Shown: positions 22,839-56,222 of the stretch, one piece after another | Layout of the letters: each line of letters opens with the position of its first letter | Position numbering within the stretch: position 1 is the first letter of the stretch | NCBI RefSeq assembly: GCF_900149705.1 | Contig: NZ_LT703001.1 | Coordinates: 2,846,001 to 2,910,000, forward strand | Source: Sphingorhabdus sp. Alg231-15 | GTDB lineage: Bacteria > Pseudomonadota > Alphaproteobacteria > Sphingomonadales > Sphingomonadaceae | Length of the DNA: 64,000 nt | Direction: 5' to 3' | Made by a program: the position numbers and the translations under genes | Notes under the pieces: model-generated | Told to the model about the DNA's origin: nothing | Seen by the model: the letters and a program-made list of their open reading frames with translations, nothing else | Database searches by the model: none

Positions 22839-22985
22839 TGCATTTTCTTTCGCTTAAACGGCGCATCAGGAAGACTGGCATTGGCCCCGATCATCCAACA
22901 ACGACAACATAGAAGCAATTGTTGCCGAATGGCAACGTTCGATCTGATCCATTACATTTTTATGAATATCCTTACATTCCGCCAT

Positions 22986-23122: not shown

Positions 23123-26100
23123 TTGAAGAAATTTATAGCTGTAGAGGCGAACGCGGGCACGATGCGGCCAGGTAAAATCCTGTCATCGGTTTCTGCCATT
23201 GCGCTTTGTTGTGTGGCGACGCAGCCGGCATTGGCGCAAGATGCTGGCGCAGAGCAGCAGGATGGAGCCGATGATGAGATTATCGTCACCGGTATTCGGC
23301 AAAGCATCAAGTCCTCTCAAGAAATCAAGCGAACGGCGGACACATTTGTTGATTCGATTACTGCTGAAGACATCGGTCAGTTACCAGACCGTTCGGTAAC
23401 AGAAACCCTGCAACGTATTCCCGGCATTTCAATAAGCCGGTTCGCTGCTGCGGACGATCCGGATCATTTCTCTGTCGAAGGTGCCGGCGTTGTTATTCGC
23501 GGACTGACATTTGTTCGTTCAGAGCTAAATGGTCGCGATACATTCTCGGCGAACAATGGCCGAGCGCTTGGATTTAATGATGTTTCGCCAGAGCTTCTTG
23601 GCGCTGTTAATGTCTTTAAGCAGCAAACTGCGGACATGATCGAAGGTGGTCTTGCTGGTTCGGTGGATCTGCGGACGCGTAAGCCGTTTGATAAACGCGA
23701 ACTGGTGCTTTCAGGCTCTATCGAAGGCAATTATGGCGATCTGCGCAAAAAATGGTCGCCGACCTATTCCATTTTTGCAAGCAACGTATGGAATAGTGGT
23801 ATTGGCGACATCGGCCTGATGCTCAACTATTCGCGTTCCGAGCTATTTTCACGCAATAACGGCACTCAGGTTACGGACTACACGTTCCGTGATGACCTCG
23901 ACCCAGCACGCACGGTGCTGGTACCACGCGGCGCAGGTGTACGATCCCAGGATTTTGATCGGGAACGTCAGTCCTACGGTGGTGCTTTGCAATGGGAAAG
24001 CAATGCAGGTGATGCTCAGGCGACGTTTGAATTTCTGCGGGTTGAAGCAAAGCAGGCATGGACCGAGCGCACTTTTGAAACCGCTGCGGATCAGTCTTTC
24101 ACAACGCGCCCTGTTCCAGGGACAACATTTGGTTTCGATGAAACGGGGCAATTTACGGATGGCTTCCTAACCGATACGGCGGGTTGGCGCTCAGCAGCTA
24201 ACTGTCCGGCGGGCCAGTTCGACAATTGTATTCCTTTGAACGGGTTTCAACATACCACTGGGCGCCGTTCAGTCGATCAAGAGACAACCACTCAGGACAT
24301 TTCACTAAATTTGAAATTCTATCCTACTGATCGATTGTCGTTTAATTTCGATGCTCAATATATTGAATCGACGACCGAGAATCTCGATCTTTCAATCTTT
24401 GGCAGTACGTTTGCTAACGCTGCCATTGATATCAATGCGGGCGGGATTCCAGATGTTCGGTTCAGCGCTCCAACGCCTGATGGTTCAGATATTGCGGATT
24501 ACTTCGCTGATCCTACACACAGTTATTACCGTGCTGCCATGGATCATCTGGAAGATAGTGAAGGGGATGAATTCGCATTCCGCGGTGATGTTGATTATGA
24601 ATTTGATGATGACAGTTTCTTGCGCAAAATAAGCGCTGGTGGTCGTTTCTCCACCCGCGATCAGACAACACGTTTCTCCGTTTACAATTGGGGTGTGTTG
24701 AGTGAGATCTGGAACGGGTCGACTGGTCCGGTCTTCTTTGGCGATGTTACCGGAAGTCCAGTAGAAACCTTCGCGTTCCCGAACTTTCAGCGTGGTGATG
24801 TTAGTCAGCCAAGTGCTGCATTATATTATGGTGGTGACATTATCTCGGGTTATCGTGACGGGTCGACCATAGCGGACTTGATTAGCATCAATGATTTGTG
24901 GACCAATCCTGGCTGGAGACCATTGGCACAGCGTGGCAATGTCGTCGATGGTGGACCGTTTACGCAAGGCGAAATCAACGAGACCAGGGAAGAAACATTC
25001 GCTACCTATTTGCGCCTCGACTTTGGTTCCGATGATATCTTTGGAGGAATGCGGTTAGATGGTAATATTGGCTTGCGCTATGTGAACACCAAGTTCCAGA
25101 CGCGCGGCGCATTCCAGACCCCGACACAAGGGGATGTCTTTTCCGGTGACTGTTCAATTCCGACACCAGCACCTGATGAATTCTGTCTGCTTTCACCCGA
25201 ACGACAGGCGCTCGCATTTGCTTTTGCCGATGGCGTTGCGATACCGGATACGCAACAGAGCTCTTTCACAAACTGGTTGCCTAGTCTCAATCTGAAACTG
25301 GGCGTTACCGATGAACTGATTTTCCGTTTTGGTGTATCAAAAGGAATCAGCCGCCCGGAACTGGGCTTGACCCGAAACTTCTTCGTGGCGCAGCAAAATA
25401 TCACTGACCTGGTTGTTGGCGGTGGCGATCTGGCGAATGGTCCATTGTTTAAAGCGGACGTGGGTAACCCAAATCTTCGGCCAGTTGAGTCAACCAACTG
25501 GGATCTATCGGCGGAGTATTATTTTAATGCGACTGGTTCCGTGACGGCATCGCTTTTTCTAAAAGATATAAAAAATGTGATAACATCGGGTAGTGAAATC
25601 GTGTCGGCGACAAATAGTGCTGGTGTGACAACCGATGTGCTGGTTTCAGGGCCATTTAACAACGGTAGCGGTACGGTTAAGGGATTTGAATTGGCTTACA
25701 ACCAATTTTATGACTTCCTACCCGGACCTTTATCTGGGTTCGGTTTCCAAGGGAATTATACCTTTATTGATTCTTCGGAAATTCCGAATTCAAACTTGAA
25801 TCCGACTGCTGTCAATGGTGTGCAACCTGCACCGACGATCAACAATCTACCATTGCAGGGACTGTCCAAGCATAACTTCAATGCCGCCCTGCTTTATGAC
25901 AAATATGGCGTGTCAGCGCGTTTGGCTTATAGTTGGCGGTCGCGTTACCTGCTCACAACGCGAGACGTGATCTTCCCGTTCTCGCCAATCTGGCAGGACG
26001 CTTCAGGACAGCTTGATGGATCGATTTTCTACACAATCAATGAACATGTGAAAATCGGCGTGCAGGCTGTGAACCTGTTGAATGAAACGACGGTTACCCG

Positions 26101-50098: not shown

Positions 50099-50316
50099 AC
50101 ATCCGATACGCGCTATCCAGATTCCAGGTGAACGTAGATCATTCGGCATTTGACAAAATCGGCCGGATTTGCGCCAAAAATCGAAAATTCTTCAGGCAAT
50201 TGCCAAATCGCAACAAGCGAAATTGCGAATCGCCCTAACAAGGGGTTGTCGCATGAAGCGGCATATAACAGGGCCTCTTTACCCCCTTCCTTGTTTGATC
50301 AGGGAATGATGAGAAG

Positions 50317-50331
50317 CCTTAGACCCTAAGG
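50317..50331 (+). promoter_or_regulatory. Hairpin overlapping the ribosome site of the Asn-rich gene
   Basis: CCTTA-gaccc-TAAGG can pair, and its right arm overlaps the Shine-Dalgarno AAGGAG (50328-50333) located 7 bp before the ATG. It could reduce initiation at the next gene until melted. The stem is only 5 bp, so chance is possible. Confidence 0.4.
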
Positions 50332-50340
50332 AGAATACCG

Positions 50341-50844
50341 ATGAAAATGACTAAAGTAATGGCGGCATCAGCTGCAGTGGTTGCTTTGGCCGTTGGCGCC
50401 CCTGCCATGGCTCAGCAAAACCAAAATAACGATGTCACAGACACCAACAACGGTGCTGTCGTTGTTAACGATCTGCTTGATGTATATCTGGCGGCAGACG
50501 CCAGCACGACAAATACGCTGGACGACATCAACAGCAATAACAACAACAACAACGATCTTGTTATCGCTACGCAAACGCTGACCGCATATAACACCAACTC
50601 TCAGATGGATGAACTCATCGATCTGGATGGTGAAGATGGTACACCGGCTCCAGTCGGTTATAACAGCGGCGACAACTATGTTCGCGGCAATGCCTTCGCA
50701 GCTTTTGCGGGTATCCTGAACCAATCATGGAATACCGGCGTCAACAACAACAACCAGGCTGCAACCAACATTGCGGCACAAGGCTCCATCAACTTCGGTG
50801 ATGGTGCTGGTGAAGCGGCTGCCGGCGGCGGTGGCGGCGATTAA
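50341..50844 (+). CDS. Secreted Asn-rich protein, possible functional-amyloid-like subunit
   Basis: A 167-residue protein with a clear signal peptide (VVALAVGAPAMAQ, cleavage ~residue 25). The mature part is rich in Asn and Thr, has no Cys, includes a run of six Asn (INSNNNNNND) and the segment SWNTGVNNNNQAATNIAAQG, and ends in a Gly run then Asp. That segment is reminiscent of the Asn/Gln-Gly-Val-Asn repeats of FapC amyloid fibres, but only one such unit is visible. I therefore call it amyloid-like by resemblance only. A strong AAGGAG site precedes it. It is first in the run of exported genes. Confidence 0.7.
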   Translation: MKMTKVMAASAAVVALAVGAPAMAQQNQNNDVTDTNNGAVVVNDLLDVYLAADASTTNTLDDINSNNNNNNDLVIATQTLTAYNTNSQMDELIDLDGEDGTPAPVGYNSGDNYVRGNAFAAFAGILNQSWNTGVNNNNQAATNIAAQGSINFGDGAGEAAAGGGGGD

Positions 50845-50864
50845 TCGCCCACGCGATGAAGGGC

Positions 50865-50893
50865 GGGCCGGTTCCAGCCGATGGAACCGGCCC
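50865..50893 (+). other. Perfect 12-bp hairpin between the subunit gene and the downstream genes
   Basis: GGGCCGGTTCCA-gccga-TGGAACCGGCCC is a perfect stem 20 bp after the Asn-rich gene. No T-run follows. It may be a processing or partial-termination site that gives more of the first transcript than of the next genes. Confidence 0.7.
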
Positions 50894-50934
50894 CTCCATC
50901 CCCCAAATCCGTATCCCTATCGGGAGTAAAGACG

Positions 50935-51306
50935 ATGAAAAAGCATTTTTGGCTTCTTATGATAGCCCCACTGGCCATGTCCGCTTCCCACGCAAGCGCA
51001 CAGGTCACGGATCAAGGCGCAGCGCCCCAGGCACCCGCGACGACCGCGCAGCCGTCTGCATCCCCCCTGATGTCGTTAGACGAGCTCGATGAGCTACGCG
51101 GCGGCACACAGATAGCAATTAACGAACAGACCTTTAACTCGGACAATACCGGCAATACGATCAACGGTGATTTCACCGCCGGTGATGTCAACTTGTCGGA
51201 TAACTCCCTGTCCAGTTTTAACGGTCTTGGTAATATTGTGATCAACACCGGCGCTCAGTCGGCACTCCAGGCGGGCCTGGCCGTGACGATCAATATTACC
51301 GATTAG
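50935..51306 (+). CDS. Small exported protein with double-glycine motif (candidate C39 peptidase substrate 1)
   Basis: A 123-residue protein. A Sec signal peptide (~1-22, ending SHASAQ) is followed by a Pro/Ala-rich linker and then SLDELDELRGG (Ser47 to Gly57), an exact fit to the double-glycine leader pattern S-x2-E-L-x2-[IL]-x-G-G. The last 66 residues are Asn/Thr/Gly-rich beta-prone sequence (NTGNTINGDFTAGDVNLSDN and VINTGAQSALQAG). Cleavage after Gly57 by the adjacent C39 peptidase is my inference. ATG 50935 has GGGAG before it; an upstream frame start is rejected because it would bury the signal peptide. Confidence 0.75.
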   Translation: MKKHFWLLMIAPLAMSASHASAQVTDQGAAPQAPATTAQPSASPLMSLDELDELRGGTQIAINEQTFNSDNTGNTINGDFTAGDVNLSDNSLSSFNGLGNIVINTGAQSALQAGLAVTINITD

Positions 51307-51320
51307 GTAAGGTATAGGCC

Positions 51321-52127
51321 ATGACCCTCACTCCCCCCATCAAAAATGGCCTACGCCCAGCCTTTCCGCCCTTCAAGAGCGGCTTGAAATCTTTCTTGAA
51401 GGGCGGACTGCTGGCTCTTTCCGGCGCCACCCTGATTTATAGCTCCGCCGCACAATCCGAAGTCCGTTTGGCGCGAGAATCGACCGGTGGAGACTATTAT
51501 GTCGGCGTAATGACCTGGTGGGATATCCCCTTTCGTTCGGTTGTTCGCCAACGCTATGATTTTAGCTGCGGGTCTGCAGCAGTCGCGACCTTGCTCACCT
51601 ATCACTATGATCGACCAACAGTCGAGAGAACACCGTTTAAAGCGATGTGGGATCAGGGCGATAAAGAGGTCATAAAAAAAGTCGGCTTCTCGATGCTCGA
51701 CATGCGCAACTATTTGCAATCCATCGGTTATCGTGCCGAGGGCTTCAAACTGAAGCCAGGACAACTTATTCAGGTCAAGCGGCCGGTCATCGTGCTTCTG
51801 GACATCGATGGTTTCAAACATTTCGTTGTGGTCAAGGGACAGACCGAAGATCAGGTGCTGGTCGGCGATTCTGTGCTTGGCATCAACAAATATTCTTACG
51901 AAGATTTCCATAAATACTGGAACGGAATCGCTTTGGCCATCGTCGATGGACCTATTACCAAACGACCTATCTACAATCTTGCCGGTGACTGGAATCCCTG
52001 GTCCACCGCTCCGACTGATCAGGTGTCCGAAACCGCAACGATCGGCAATTTAACCACCCACCTTCCCCCCCTGTACCAGATCACGCCAGAATTTCTTCTC
52101 GACGTGCGGGTTGGTACCGTCAGATGA
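51321..52127 (+). CDS. Exported C39-family cysteine peptidase (FapD-like)
   Basis: A 268-residue protein. An N-terminal signal/anchor (~24-45, FLKGGLLALSGATLIYSSAA) precedes a papain-like C39 domain: oxyanion Gln77 and nucleophile Cys83 in RQRYDFSCGSAA, His167 in GFKHFVVVKG, Asp183 in VGDSVLG. C39 peptidases cut after double glycine. Unlike bacteriocin exporters, it has no ABC transporter attached and probably acts in the periplasm. FapD of the Pseudomonas amyloid system is also a stand-alone C39 peptidase. The neighbours on both sides carry double-glycine motifs. Confidence 0.88.
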   Translation: MTLTPPIKNGLRPAFPPFKSGLKSFLKGGLLALSGATLIYSSAAQSEVRLARESTGGDYYVGVMTWWDIPFRSVVRQRYDFSCGSAAVATLLTYHYDRPTVERTPFKAMWDQGDKEVIKKVGFSMLDMRNYLQSIGYRAEGFKLKPGQLIQVKRPVIVLLDIDGFKHFVVVKGQTEDQVLVGDSVLGINKYSYEDFHKYWNGIALAIVDGPITKRPIYNLAGDWNPWSTAPTDQVSETATIGNLTTHLPPLYQITPEFLLDVRVGTVR

Positions 52128-52137
52128 GAGACAGACC

Positions 52138-52734
52138 ATGAACTGCAGACGTAAATATTTCGCCACGGTCGCCTGCATCGCTTCCTTCACAGCGATGCTC
52201 ATGCCCCAAATCGCCAAAGCCGACCCCACGGTGACGGCGGTTGATCTGCCCGCACTTGTTTCAGACGAAGATTTGGACAAGCTGCGTGGCGGGTTTGTCG
52301 TGTCTGGGCTAGGTATAAATTTCGGGGCTGATATCAGGACCTATGTCAATGGAGAGTTGCTTCTGCAGACGGTGCTGAACCTGAACGATGAGGGCGCGCA
52401 TACCACCCAGACGGCTGCTGCCGGACTAAGCCCGGTTGATGTTTCTGCGCTCGAAAATGGGGTGTTGTCCAATGGCAATATCCGGATGAAGGTTGGCGAT
52501 ACACCGGTCTACTTGCTGAACAACGGCCAAACCGCAATTGTTCATGAGACCACCAATGGTGTCCAGAATATGCTGATCAATACCGCCAACGGCTTTGAGG
52601 CCGTGCAAGAAGTGGACGCAACGCTGAGTCTTTCTGGCTATGAAAATTTCAATAGCAATCTGATGATGGATCGACTGGGCAGCGCTCTCGATGATCTAGC
52701 GGGTCACGCCGCAATTGGGGCTCTGGGGAACTGA
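52138..52734 (+). CDS. Exported protein with double-glycine motif (candidate C39 peptidase substrate 2)
   Basis: A 198-residue protein. A signal peptide (~1-28, ending IAKAD) is followed by VSDEDLDKLRGG (Val41 to Gly52), again a canonical double-glycine motif. A 146-residue domain (FVVSGLGINFGADIRTYVNG, NIRMKVGDTPVYLLNNGQ) follows that looks soluble and beta-rich and contains no Cys. It follows the peptidase stop by 10 bp and ends just before a strong terminator. I recognise no family. It may be a chaperone, nucleator or second fibre component. Confidence 0.72.
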   Translation: MNCRRKYFATVACIASFTAMLMPQIAKADPTVTAVDLPALVSDEDLDKLRGGFVVSGLGINFGADIRTYVNGELLLQTVLNLNDEGAHTTQTAAAGLSPVDVSALENGVLSNGNIRMKVGDTPVYLLNNGQTAIVHETTNGVQNMLINTANGFEAVQEVDATLSLSGYENFNSNLMMDRLGSALDDLAGHAAIGALGN

Positions 52735-53118
52735 TGGGGAATTGACCGGCCGCCAATCCTGCCGGTCCTAAACTGAAGCGCTGTGAGCCTTCACGCAGGT
52801 TCGCGGCGCTTTTTTTGCGGACCCGACAGATCCTTAATCCTAACCTGATCGACTGGTGCGAGGCCGTGATATCAGGACTGAAGAAGATGGGTGCGCGACA
52901 ATTTGTCCTCAGCGCGTTATCTATGGAACGAGACTGACGACTATAATCCCAAAGCTCTTGATCGCGCGAAAGAACTGAGATGATCATCCACCTTTCGCAA
53001 AAGGATACTTGTAACTGTTGCTGCGTGGCCGGTAAAACGGGTTGCAAAAGGGCTCGGACACGGTGTGATTGTCGATGCTTCTTGCCCGTTTCGTCGGTCA
53101 ACGCGGTCATTTGATAAT
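52735..53118. other. Intergenic region between convergent transcripts
   Basis: There is no supportable gene in these 384 bp. They hold the intrinsic terminator at 52778-52816 and then about 300 bp of unrecognised sequence. A short open frame on the plus strand around 52880-52983 looks protein-like for about 30 codons but has no start context. It may be a decayed remnant. Confidence 0.55.
52778..52816 (+). terminator. Intrinsic terminator of the double-glycine/C39 operon
   Basis: A 13-bp stem with three G-T pairs (GCGCTGTGAGCCT with AGGTTCGCGGCGC), loop TCACGC, followed by seven T. It is placed 44 bp after the last gene of the operon. Confidence 0.88.
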
Positions 53119-54666
53119 CTAAAAGCGGAAGGGTATGCGCGCAACAATGCTGACGTCCGGGGCGTCCTCGGTCACGCCAAACTGGAAGCCGAGATTCATA
53201 GATTGCTTTTCACTGAGGCGATAGGACATGCCAAAGTTGAGTGATCCAACCTGAATATCATTACTCTCTTGCAATGTGTCGCCGAGCTGGGTTTTGGTCG
53301 AGAAAATATAGTTGTGGCGATATCCCAGCGAGAAAGAAAAGCGCGGGTTGAGTGCAAAGCCAAAACCGACGCTCGCGTTTATTGCATCACCCGGATCGAC
53401 CTTTCCGACAAAAACATCGCCGACCACGCGATCGATATTGCGTTCAATATTCCACAAGTAGCCGGTGCCGCCGTAGATGACGACAGGGTCAGAGGGCAGC
53501 AGGAAGCTAATGCTGGGTTGTACGCCCCAGAAGCCCGATCCAGTGGCAAGTCCGGTAGCAACGCCAAATTCGTCGAACGGAATCTCATAGGGACTGGTGC
53601 CGGTATCGGTTTTGACGCGAAGGCCGGCGACCCAGATAGGACTTTGCGATTTGGGTCGGTTGAGTTGATAGCGTAGCGAAATTTCGGCGTCGCCTATCCC
53701 GGTTTCCTCTAGACCAACTTCCCGGGTAATCTGTTCATCGCGTTGCTGAACAACCTGAATTCTATCCTTACGATAGAGTAGGGGAACGCGGCCCTCGATC
53801 TCCAGCCTGTTGGTCAGACCGTAGCGCATGGCGAAAGTTCCGATGATGGTGTCGCGGTCCGCGTCGCTGGCTTCAATCGCTCCAATCTGGATACCCGGAA
53901 TCAACTCGATTCCACGGAAGACCAACCGGTTGGTGGATGAGCGTGTATATTCAATGGAAGGATCAAGCACGAACTGTCCGCGTGGTGTCAGCACTCCTTG
54001 CCCTTCCGGCACGGCTTCAACCTTCTGTTCGATATTGTTCGCTTCCGGCGGAGCTTCGCCAACCGGGCCTTCCGGCATGGTCAGTTCATCATCCGGGCTC
54101 GTCCCGATTTGCACTGCGGCTGTCTCTACCCGGCTTCGCTGAATACCGGTACCGCGCATCTGCGAAAGGGCAAACGGTGTCTCCACGGGAGCAGCGGCGC
54201 GCACTAGTTGATTATGCAGCTCGAGCTGTTTGATCTTGTCATTTTGAGATTGGATCAGCGCGTTCTGGCTGGCGATCAGTTGCTTTTGCTCCGACAGTTC
54301 GGATTGTATCGCTTGCAAAGCAGCGGTGATATTAGTTGTTTCCTGATCCATAACTTTCGCTTGGGGCTTTTTTGTCGCCGGTTTGGGCATAGGAGCCGCC
54401 GCTTGCATTATCGGTGCGGGCGAAGGCTCCGCTGGTACTGTCGTCGGTTCTGCCGCTCGCGACTGACTTTTGGACTGCACGGCCTGTAATCGCGCCATGA
54501 TTCTGGCCGACTCCGCTTCGGCTTCAGCAGCAGTAAAGCTTTGGGCCGGGCTGACATTTTCTTTTTCGATTGTTGACGGTGTCGCGGCATCCGCTGATCC
54601 ACCAAACAATGCCGCAGCGGGAAGGGCGACTATATAGGCGAGGGGGTTTGATATTGTGCTGGTCAT
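53119..54666 (-). CDS. Outer-membrane beta-barrel protein with N-terminal coiled coil (FapF-like)
   Basis: A 515-residue protein. A signal peptide (~1-27, AAALFGGSADA) and a Pro/Ala-rich stretch are followed by a coiled coil (~109-154, AALQAIQSELSEQKQLIASQ and NALIQSQNDKIKQLELHNQL). A linker precedes a beta-barrel (~224-515) with GVLTPRGQFVLDPSIEY, ADRDTIIGTFAMRYGLTNRL and terminal IVARIPFRF. A trimerising coiled coil joined to a 12-strand-type barrel is the layout of FapF, the amyloid secretion pore. The same fold region occurs in barrels annotated only as transporters. ATG 54666 is chosen because GGAGA precedes it; a longer frame would overlap the regulator gene. Confidence 0.8.
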   Translation of the reverse strand: MTSTISNPLAYIVALPAAALFGGSADAATPSTIEKENVSPAQSFTAAEAEAESARIMARLQAVQSKSQSRAAEPTTVPAEPSPAPIMQAAAPMPKPATKKPQAKVMDQETTNITAALQAIQSELSEQKQLIASQNALIQSQNDKIKQLELHNQLVRAAAPVETPFALSQMRGTGIQRSRVETAAVQIGTSPDDELTMPEGPVGEAPPEANNIEQKVEAVPEGQGVLTPRGQFVLDPSIEYTRSSTNRLVFRGIELIPGIQIGAIEASDADRDTIIGTFAMRYGLTNRLEIEGRVPLLYRKDRIQVVQQRDEQITREVGLEETGIGDAEISLRYQLNRPKSQSPIWVAGLRVKTDTGTSPYEIPFDEFGVATGLATGSGFWGVQPSISFLLPSDPVVIYGGTGYLWNIERNIDRVVGDVFVGKVDPGDAINASVGFGFALNPRFSFSLGYRHNYIFSTKTQLGDTLQESNDIQVGSLNFGMSYRLSEKQSMNLGFQFGVTEDAPDVSIVARIPFRF

Positions 54667-54701
54667 ATTGAAGTCTCCAAGCATGCCAAGGCATGCAAAT
54701 T

Positions 54702-55418
54702 TCAGGCAGCTGATAGTTCGCCAAGGCAAAGGCCGGCTGCGGGATGAATGTCGGTTTCGGGTTCGGCCGCCAAGCTGTCATGATATTCGCCGGCGATACT
54801 GCAAAGACCGGAGTTATCGGTAATGATGACCGAGTGTCGTCCGTCAATTTTGATCAACCCACGGCGGGCCAGGTCAGTAAATGTCCGGCTAACCGTGTGC
54901 ACCGTGAGGCCAAGAAAATCAGCGATATCGCTGCGCGACATCGGGATCCGGATACAGGAATCACCATCGGCCTGTTGTTTCAGGCACAGCAGAAACGCCG
55001 CAAGCTTCTCAGTTGCGGTCCGGTGTCCCATGATGAACAGATAGCGCTGAGCCGTCGACATCGCACGAAACAGAATCGTAACGGCTTCGTCGAGTTGTTT
55101 TTTGGGCGTTGAGTCGTCGGTGATATCCCCGACTCTGTAACACCGAACCACGACGTCGGTAACGGCTTCAGCCGCCGTTCCATAGTTGCCGTAGTCGGCC
55201 CCGAAAACGTCGCCACTGAAGAAAAAACCGGTTAGGTGACGATGCCCGTCCATATGGAAACGACATGTGCGCACGGTTCCGTGCACCACTTCGTACCAAC
55301 GACTGGCTCTTTGCCCTTCATCAAATATGAGTTGTCCTGCGCGAAACCGTAAGGTGGTAGAGCGCAAGTTCGAGTTTAGCCCCTGCATGATTGCAGGTGC
55401 GGTCATTAGCGATTGCAT
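54702..55418 (-). CDS. Crp/Fnr-family transcriptional regulator (FixK-like, without Fe-S cysteines)
   Basis: A 238-residue regulator. A cyclic-nucleotide-binding-like beta-roll occupies ~20-110 (LRFRAGQLIFDEGQRASRWY and FFFSGDVFGADYG). After a dimer helix, the winged helix-turn-helix reads MSRSDIADFLGLTVHTVSRTF then ARRGLIKIDG. The N-terminal Fnr cysteine cluster is absent, so it should not sense oxygen directly. It is 35 bp upstream of the FapF-like gene in the same direction and may be co-transcribed with it, suggesting control of the export module. AGAGGAG precedes the ATG. Confidence 0.9.
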   Translation of the reverse strand: MQSLMTAPAIMQGLNSNLRSTTLRFRAGQLIFDEGQRASRWYEVVHGTVRTCRFHMDGHRHLTGFFFSGDVFGADYGNYGTAAEAVTDVVVRCYRVGDITDDSTPKKQLDEAVTILFRAMSTAQRYLFIMGHRTATEKLAAFLLCLKQQADGDSCIRIPMSRSDIADFLGLTVHTVSRTFTDLARRGLIKIDGRHSVIITDNSGLCSIAGEYHDSLAAEPETDIHPAAGLCLGELSAA

Positions 55419-55952
55419 CCGTGCTGTCTCCTCTGGATTTTCAGCACGACCCTTTATTGTTCATTCCGTGACGATATTCCCAGAATATCATCGCGGCCTC
55501 AGATGCGACCTTTTGTTGTTTTGTGGTGATTATGTAGGGCAGGAGGGTGCAAATCGTCTATCCAGTGATTCGCTTGTTTGGAAAACCAAGTCATTCTGCC
55601 TGCGGGTTTTTACTAGGGGATTTTACCTACTAGATTGACAGACTGATGTAAATTACTGTAAATTCAGGCAGTTGGCATGGACGTTTTTGTCCTATCCCAA
55701 ACCTGTAGTACACGAGTAAAAGATTAACTATCGCAGGACGACATAGTCACTGCGATGTCACAGTTAAGACGATTTGTTGGGGAGGGAACCACCAACAGTC
55801 AGATTAGGCGGCCCAACAGGCCGTTAAATGTTGTGCGCAGTGATAGCTCGCAGCGATGGTGTCGCTTGTGAGTACACGACCGAAACAAATGGGGGCATTT
55901 GTGATCGGCAAGTTTTTTTGGCTTGTCGGTATTTTAAAAGGTAGGCCTCGTG
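55419..55952. promoter_or_regulatory. Regulatory region between Crp/Fnr and LuxR-type genes
   Basis: This 534-bp divergent region has no supportable gene. It contains two direct copies of TGTAAATT (55647-55654, 55657-55664) with a 10-bp period, and just before them an imperfect dyad (TACTAGG ... CCTACTAG, 55611-55633). Such helically phased repeats suit a regulator dimer array, but no known consensus is matched. Confidence 0.5.
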
Positions 55953-56222
55953 ATGTTACAGCAAAAGAGTTTGACCAGCGGTCCAGTGCTCACGCTGAGA
56001 GAGCATGAGATATTGGAATTTATTGCTCAGGGCATGTCGACCAAAGAAGTGGCGCAGCATATTGATATAGCGCCGCGCACCGTGGATCGCCATGTCGAGA
56101 ATGTACGTCTGAAATTGCGGGCGAAGAATCGCACACATATGGTCGCTTGCGCGGTTATGGAGGGTTTGCTGATGGTCGATATCGATGATCGGCAGCCCGT
56201 TGCCGAGACTGAAGCTCCATGA
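55953..56222 (+). CDS. Small LuxR/GerE-type helix-turn-helix regulator
   Basis: An 89-residue protein made of almost only a GerE DNA-binding domain: LTLREHEILEFIAQGMSTKE, VAQHIDIAPRTVDRHVENVR, then KNRTHMVACAVMEGLL. There is no receiver, autoinducer or PAS domain, so it is a stand-alone regulator that may need a partner or be controlled by its amount. GTG 55950 and ATG 55953 are adjacent; ATG is chosen with AAAGG before it. It faces the Crp/Fnr gene across a long regulatory gap, so it may act on the amyloid-like module; that is inference. Confidence 0.88.
   Translation: MLQQKSLTSGPVLTLREHEILEFIAQGMSTKEVAQHIDIAPRTVDRHVENVRLKLRAKNRTHMVACAVMEGLLMVDIDDRQPVAETEAP

Follow-up and report, generated by a model that had tools for sequence, protein, structure and literature searches.

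We analyzed a stretch of 64,000 nucleotides (the window) from Sphingorhabdus sp. Alg231-15 (assembly GCF_900149705.1, contig NZ_LT703001.1), in which a block of six genes, denoted here as A to F, occupies positions 50317-55418 (Table 1). A preliminary description of this block had recognized a secreted Asn-rich protein, two small exported proteins, an exported C39 peptidase, a coiled-coil and beta-barrel outer-membrane protein, and a Crp/Fnr regulator, and had read them as either a divergent Fap (functional amyloid) system or a new fiber-secretion system with similar parts. All six genes were found where that description had placed them; the Asn-rich protein is A and the two small exported proteins are B and D. 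Signal peptides of the block proteins were assigned from hydropathy and by eye.

Table 1. Features of the block, in window coordinates (aa, amino acids; bp, base pairs; pLDDT, predicted local distance difference test score; family matches are given as E values).
Feature	Position	Strand	Remarks
Palindrome TTGCCAAATCGCAA (TTGC-N6-GCAA), possible box of F, 141 bp before A	50200..50213	+	
A: exported Asn-rich protein, in the position of FapC	50341..50844	+	167 aa, 16.2% Asn; no leader motif seen
B: exported 123-aa protein, leader MSLDELDELRGG (SLDELDELRGG), mature part ~66 aa	50935..51306	+	RGG in 30/31 near homologs
Gly-Gly (residues 56-57) in the leader of B, with a predicted cut following it	51100..51105	+	
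C: stand-alone C39 peptidase, FapD-type, with N-terminal export signal	51321..52127	+	268 aa; Pfam C39 5.9e-18, NCBIfam FapD 3.9e-47
Cys83 of C	51567-51569	+	
D: exported 198-aa protein, leader SDEDLDKLRGGF (SDEDLDKLRGG), in the position of FapE	52138..52734	+	start best read at 52138
Gly-Gly (residues 51-52) in the leader of D, with a predicted cut following it	52288..52293	+	
E: outer-membrane protein resembling FapF, with a coiled coil followed by a beta barrel	53119..54666	-	515 aa; NCBIfam FapF 7.1e-42
Long helix of E, residues 105-158, read as coiled coil	54193..54354	-	predicted; pLDDT 62-76 mid-helix, lower at both ends
F: FixK/Fnr-type Crp/Fnr regulator, upstream of E on the same strand	54702..55418	-	NCBIfam FixK 5.9e-43, under cut-off

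The peptidase and the pore relate this block to the Fap system. C scored 160 bits with NCBIfam FapD, its top family, under the curated equivalog cut-off of 330 bits, and its match to FilB was weaker (4e-30, against 4e-47 for FapD); the profile comparison with FapD that the preliminary description had proposed returned a match. The residues Cys83, His167, and Asp183 to which that description had pointed were confirmed and, together with Gln77 (oxyanion), were invariant in 97/97 aligned C homologs, near copies included. E scored 144 bits with NCBIfam FapF, under the cut-off of 700 bits. A search of the PDB with a 23-homolog profile of E returned four distinct sequences at E <= 0.01, all FapF, and the entries matched were 5o65, 5o67, and 5o68 only (best 3e-35). 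An AlphaFold2 model of E built from 23 sequences (mean pLDDT 45.7) comprises a predicted helix at residues 105-158 followed by strands, and in a Foldseek search with this low-confidence model FapF chains held ranks 1-18 (best E 3.8e-9), with other barrels next. Assignment of E as a FilC-type protein was rejected (FilC 1.6e-19 vs. FapF 7e-42), and the CsgG family was absent from the Pfam matches listed for E. Collectively, the hidden Markov model, sequence profile, and fold searches back E as a FapF-like protein with a coiled coil and beta barrel, rather than the unrelated transporter that the preliminary description had named as the outcome that would overturn its interpretation.

The block is conserved as a unit in related genomes, as that description had expected. 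The near set comprised 30 named loci from a genome scan with C, labeled Sphingorhabdus, Parasphingorhabdus, Sphingopyxis, Erythrobacter, or uncultured relatives; counts over near loci are given per 31. A, B, C, and D occurred together in 30/30 named loci, E in 29/30, and F in 28/30, with the gene order ABCDEF and strands ++++-- in 28/30. E and F were not found on the 10.8-kb contig of L012, and F of L005 is probably located outside the region that was fetched. D and E are separated by extra genes spanning some 2.4 to 8 kb in five loci (L004, L005, L009, L010, and L017) and, because of this separation, E and F may form a unit of their own. No further copy of D or of E was found in the genome; the one other FapD match there is weak (40.6 bits) and falls within a 719-aa frame taken as an ATP-binding cassette (ABC)-type C39 protein.

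Beyond the near set, the FapF model matched 39/296 genomes of the window's order and 37/398 of its phylum. Homologs were designated classical or window-type first by FapF bit score, with trees as a later check. A group at ~680-770 bits, with seven of eight above the curated cut-off, presumably represents Pseudomonas, and a group at ~320-405 bits holds other classical homologs (14 rows in the order). Window-type homologs scored ~115-181 bits (26 rows in the order). Nine phylum-scan rows at 46-74 bits, several of them from genomes that match FilC far better, were placed outside the Fap sample, and the genomes behind four of these were examined as Fil loci. For the wider sample, we inspected the regions flanking 28 classical and 39 window-type loci; of the phylum-scan rows, 20 were classical-score (14 fetched and 2 already sampled) and 16 window-type (14 fetched and 2, G000 and G062, already sampled). 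A FapD-type peptidase gene accompanied 38/39 low-score FapF loci, with a gap to E of <=2.6 kb in 37 of those 38; L108, a FapF-like match without a peptidase, was excluded from peptidase counts. The split convergent gene order that had been put forward as a distinguishing feature did not hold as a defining trait and was dropped as a diagnostic, since 20 of 38 sampled window-type loci were convergent, 14 had C and E on one strand with E downstream, as in fap, and 4 were arranged otherwise. At one distant window-type locus (L110:1988-7370), the A-B-C-D unit is apparently duplicated in tandem ahead of a single E.

Within the window's genus, 17/32 genomes had a FapF match, 16 in the score range of the window and one with a classical score, and the window-type group was found both inside and outside the window's class. 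Three genomes (G091, G325, and G380) encode a classical-score and a window-type locus together. Unrooted trees of FapD (75 rows) and FapF (76 rows), in which 9/31 near loci were included, each part the two groups by one branch (100/99 and 100, quick method). At nine alignment columns of the peptidase, the window-type and classical groups differ at a level of >=85%; two of these columns are gaps in classical proteins, and another is the residue two positions after the catalytic Cys, Ser in the window type and Ala in the classical type. Such differences could reflect a shift in the end of the substrate. A FapA profile built from alphaproteobacterial candidates identified 19 open reading frames (ORFs), each of which belongs to a classical locus; window-type loci gave no match, but since this profile also misses 9/28 classical loci, it might overlook a remote FapA. 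The Fap-repeat pattern was present in 27/48 classical FapB/FapC candidates and in 0/31 A and 0/31 B proteins. One locus, window-type by score, is intermediate: L074:8685-14362 sits on a long branch and encodes several exported proteins with FapB/C-type repeats (FapB 9e-16); its peptidase is followed by a protein with an RGG leader, and a Crp-like regulator is encoded close by. In 14/14 classical loci of the order (L049-L062), and in none of the other loci scanned with its profile, an extra exported gene lies between fapE and fapF, and its copy in L059 (7556-8206) has the peptidoglycan-binding domain PF01471.

The exported proteins A, B, and D had no convincing match to known families in Pfam and NCBIfam scans, and A had no NCBIfam match at E <= 1. 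An Asn-rich A was encoded at 31/31 near loci, and in hhalign the profile of A weakly matched that of mature B (E 6e-5, 63 columns). A profile match of B to FapB (E 0.0019 over 14 columns) is suggestive only. A structure model of D (mean pLDDT 61.9) had no PDB match below E 0.001, and no fold is claimed. B and D both follow the double-glycine leader form, with hydrophobic spacing ending in Gly-Gly (30/31 B and 31/31 D proteins), and the Gly-Gly lies ~33 (B) and ~23 (D) residues past the likely signal peptide, as judged by eye. On the protein encoded after the peptidase, the window-type leader resembles SD-x-x-L-x-x-x-RGG, usually followed by Phe. In D, residues R50, G51, G52, and F53 were invariant in 19/19 aligned sequences, and a helix is predicted at residues 43-50, directly before the Gly-Gly (pLDDT about 53-60). 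The gene after the peptidase encodes RGG in 31/31 near loci and, in the wider sample, at 38/39 peptidase genes, with the exception being TGK in L076. B is more variable across this sample: a B-profile match was identified in 33/39 loci, of which 22 have Gly-Gly by pattern, 10 have Gly plus another residue, and 1 has neither, although a few of these picks (such as L083 and L087) are visibly off the leader.

The protein after the peptidase in classical loci carries the same leader in altered form. The NCBIfam FapE model names this protein in 3/3 loci scanned, with scores of 345 and 337 bits in two loci with an over-cut-off FapF and 69 bits in one locus of the window's order. At the position of RGG, the protein after FapD has RG[KR] in 25/29 classical loci, HGK in 3/29, and TGK in 1/29, and never RGG. 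A first count of leaders after the peptidase favored motif-bearing ORFs, and a blind recount therefore always took the longest ORF. With a strict pattern ([DE]..[LM]..RG[GKR], residues 20-220), the motif was identified in 25/29 classical and 32/39 window-type proteins (57/68), vs. 15/682 other ORFs of the same loci; with a relaxed pattern, these counts were 29/29 and 34/39 (63/68), vs. 104/682. The strict leader was detected in 0/22 classical FapB and 0/26 FapC candidates, and the relaxed one in 2 and 1, respectively. Profiles of D and FapE align in the leader region (33 columns, E 4.9e-6), and the FapE model matched one of three distant D proteins (L110, 1.2e-4, residues 9-60). This second leader on classical FapE is, in its altered form, a new observation, and we propose that FapD cuts FapE within the leader that matches that of D. 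The preliminary description had listed double-glycine motifs among the differences from Fap; the motifs themselves stand, as RGG on B and D, yet they are less foreign to Fap than had been thought because FapE carries an altered form of the same leader. Leader-like stretches were also noticed at two other loci. A 164-aa ORF at L101:13257, near a classical locus, contains DDQVLSRQRGG, and in L125 (9512-10474) the exported protein encoded ahead of a C39 gene of the Fil type has TDTAMSNATGQDG past its signal peptide, hinting at the same leader logic at Fil-type loci.

In its parts, the window-type system resembles Fap in having an exported C39 peptidase, a coiled-coil and beta-barrel pore, an Asn-rich exported protein, and a leader-bearing protein directly after the peptidase. 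It differs from Fap in that it has no FapA and no FapB/FapC match, its FapD and FapF score under the equivalog cut-offs, a second leader-bearing gene precedes the peptidase, the leaders end in RGG rather than RG[KR], its homologs occupy a separate tree branch, and a Crp/Fnr regulator is present in the near set. The Fil system of Acinetobacter, a putative pilus system with FilB and FilC, likewise has an exported C39 peptidase and a related barrel; however, C and E of the window score far better with FapD and FapF, and Fil-type loci have further genes absent here, which we take to be FadL-like and others. Double-glycine ABC exporters of the PCAT/AMS and NHLM types share a C39 peptidase and Gly-Gly leaders (solved relatives 6mpz, 7n87, and 4ry2), but their peptidase is part of an ABC transporter, whereas C and its proposed substrates have export signals of their own. 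Curli pairs a dedicated pore with a surface amyloid, as proposed here, but is not known to have a C39 peptidase. In its mode of action the window system would resemble Fap. By membership, it is best described as a sister of Fap rather than as an ordinary Fap, because the repeat subunits and FapA were not found. Of the two wordings offered in the preliminary description, our results favor the second, in the sense of a sister lineage, because the trees split, both kinds share genomes, and searches for FapB, FapC, and FapA were negative.

We consider it probable that the block encodes a two-step surface-fiber export system that is sister to Fap. From these comparisons, we infer that A, B, and D would be exported through the inner membrane by the Sec pathway, with removal of their signal peptides, leaving B and D in the periplasm with the short Gly-Gly leader still attached. 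Exported C would then cut B and D after the Gly-Gly and free their mature parts, the cut in D being the putative equivalent of FapE maturation. Through E, as a FapF-type pore, the unfolded chains would reach the surface, and there the Asn-rich A, the proposed main subunit, would assemble a possibly amyloid fiber with B and D as minor subunits. F would bind the TTGC-N6-GCAA box and control the ABCD unit.

Other explanations account for part of these data. The block could be a true Fap operon that has diverged rapidly, with FapA lost and FapB and FapC no longer recognizable, and the FapD, FapF, and FapE-like leader common to both lineages, the fap-like placement of E in 14/38 relatives, the loose repeat fragment AG..NQ in 13/31 A proteins, and the intermediate L074, with both FapB/C-type repeats and an RGG leader, are consistent with this. 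We nevertheless judge it unlikely; an old duplication fits better than recent divergence, because the (unrooted) FapD and FapF trees each part the two groups by one branch and three genomes hold both kinds. Somewhat less plausible still is that RGG serves for docking, with C acting as a chaperone that binds this tag without cutting it, a reading compatible with the RG[KR] of FapE and the variable site of distant B proteins but at odds with a catalytic triad invariant in 97/97 homologs and with a Cys mutant that blocks secretion in the Pseudomonas system (PMC5557850).

It is also improbable that B and D serve a different purpose as exported peptides, for instance in a bacteriocin-like or signaling role, and use a FapD/FapF-type exporter without forming a fiber. 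Double-glycine leaders are a mark of bacteriocin precursors, mature B is small, and one bacteriocin-like family matches B very weakly (0.095); however, B and D carry likely Sec signals, no ABC transporter was identified in a scan of eight proteins from the block and its surroundings (immunity genes were not part of the search), B is 80-94% identical among the nearest nine loci, and an Asn-rich A is always present in the near set. That E is an uptake channel of the COG4313 or phenol-degradation type, with unrelated neighbors, we hold to be very improbable: E matches Pfam Phenol_MetA_deg (1.9e-8), and a COG4313 channel (4rl8) appears in its fold search at 2e-3, but FapF is far better by both sequence and fold, and the close pairing of low-score FapF genes with a FapD-type peptidase gene described above also argues against it.

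Several observations weigh against a sister system of Fap with the leader cleavage proposed here. Mature D and mature FapE have no detectable profile similarity (E 0.45), and the FapE model matched 3/19 near D proteins (best 0.0011), with D of the window not among them. The leader motif was unseen in 5/39 blind window-type picks, of which four (L107, L109, L114, and L115) were in the wrong frame or position and one (L077) lay too near the start. The leader ends of B in the wider sample vary by eye among RGG, SGG, SGR, RGR, AGK, and TGQ, and B of Parasphingorhabdus marina (L013:9521-9949) has lost its Gly-Gly (MSSGNQ), while its D retains RGG. The FapB and FapC models of NCBIfam had no match to A or B at E <= 1, and homology of A with FapC is not claimed, as their profile match covers only the signal peptide of A (residues 2-25). 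The structure model of E is of low confidence. Finally, the residue of FapE aligned to the second Gly is Lys or Arg, a residue that C39 enzymes are not known to accept; because of this replacement, the cleavage site of FapE may differ, and FapE may be cut either after RG or after RG[KR].

These findings bear on an existing question in the Fap literature. FapD is active in the periplasm, and secretion of FapC requires the FapD Cys; the target of FapD was described as unclear, canonical C39 sequences being absent from Fap proteins, and FapE was suspected (Rouse et al., 2017; PMC5557850). FapE alone lacked peptides from its first ~70 residues in that work (PMC5557850), and in a 2025 review FapD "is thought to process" FapE and FapF (PMC12822426). 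Fap was reported from Proteobacteria, chiefly from the Beta and Gamma classes, with Delta named in the legend of a tree and Alpha unmentioned in the portion cited (Dueholm et al., 2013; PMC3792158). Pairs of fapD and fapF were reported in five further phyla, such that the pairing itself is known, and FapA is dispensable in Pseudomonas (PMC6173800). A survey of 1172 clusters required FapB/C repeats (PMC12392863). Among papers in open-access journals, judged by title or cited portion and leaving aside one on Xanthomonas Ax21 (PMC3897388), we found no report of a FapE leader, a sphingomonad Fap, or a periplasmic C39 peptidase with double-glycine substrates.

What is new here is a variant lineage with canonical leaders, together with a testable answer to the question of the FapD target. 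A precise cleavage site is predicted in both systems because the window type has textbook leaders on the same neighbor, which exposes the altered leader of FapE. A broader proposal, which we hold to be evenly balanced between true and false, is that Fap represents a single branch within a more ancient family of fiber exporters, the shared core of which is a FapF-type pore, a C39 peptidase in the periplasm, and a Sec-exported substrate with a double-glycine-type leader. FapE would then be a substrate of FapD, cut in an LRG[KR] leader some 15-25 residues past the signal peptide, and the window branch would have kept the canonical RGG and a second such substrate. The window-type lineage provides a natural comparison, with the same machine, the same neighbor, and a canonical site, and adds an exporter lineage that surveys based on FapB/C repeats, of which PMC12392863 in its cited portion is an example, miss by design. 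A window-type host is also suited to study of a periplasmic protease that would license amyloid export.

The presence of a Crp/Fnr regulator in the block was upheld, and F is FixK-like. The sequence TTGCCANNTCGCAA was identified at -137 to -146 before A in 31/31 near loci, and 12/14 bases of the palindrome are invariant amid diverged flanks. The TTGC-N6-GCAA box surfaced through a looser pattern in a listing of FNR boxes and was not predicted beforehand; the classical FNR box (TTGA-N4..6-TCAA) was detected in 0/31 regions before A and 0/29 before F. Elsewhere in the 573,709 bases of L003-L032, TTGCN6GCAA had 18 matches. The 12-base core of the palindrome occurs once in the whole genome, which proves little because a reversed control is also rare (two matches, one per strand). 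Variants of the palindrome precede the A frame, or coincide with its start, in L080, L082 (of the same species as L022), L083, L086, and L087, all of which have F, while in L072, L073, and L084 F is present and no palindrome match was found close before A. We read the palindrome as the putative box of F. An exact TTGCCANNTCGCAA also occurs ~10 bp before the E frame in the distant locus L104 (8713-8726), where F was not found. A second palindrome in the window, TTGCCGAATGGCAA at positions 22922-22935, lies ~190 bp before a large ORF at 23123 and is a possible further target of F. Beyond the block, a small gene encoding a LuxR-type helix-turn-helix protein (positions 55950-56222) is divergent from F, and a similar gene lies beyond F in L009.

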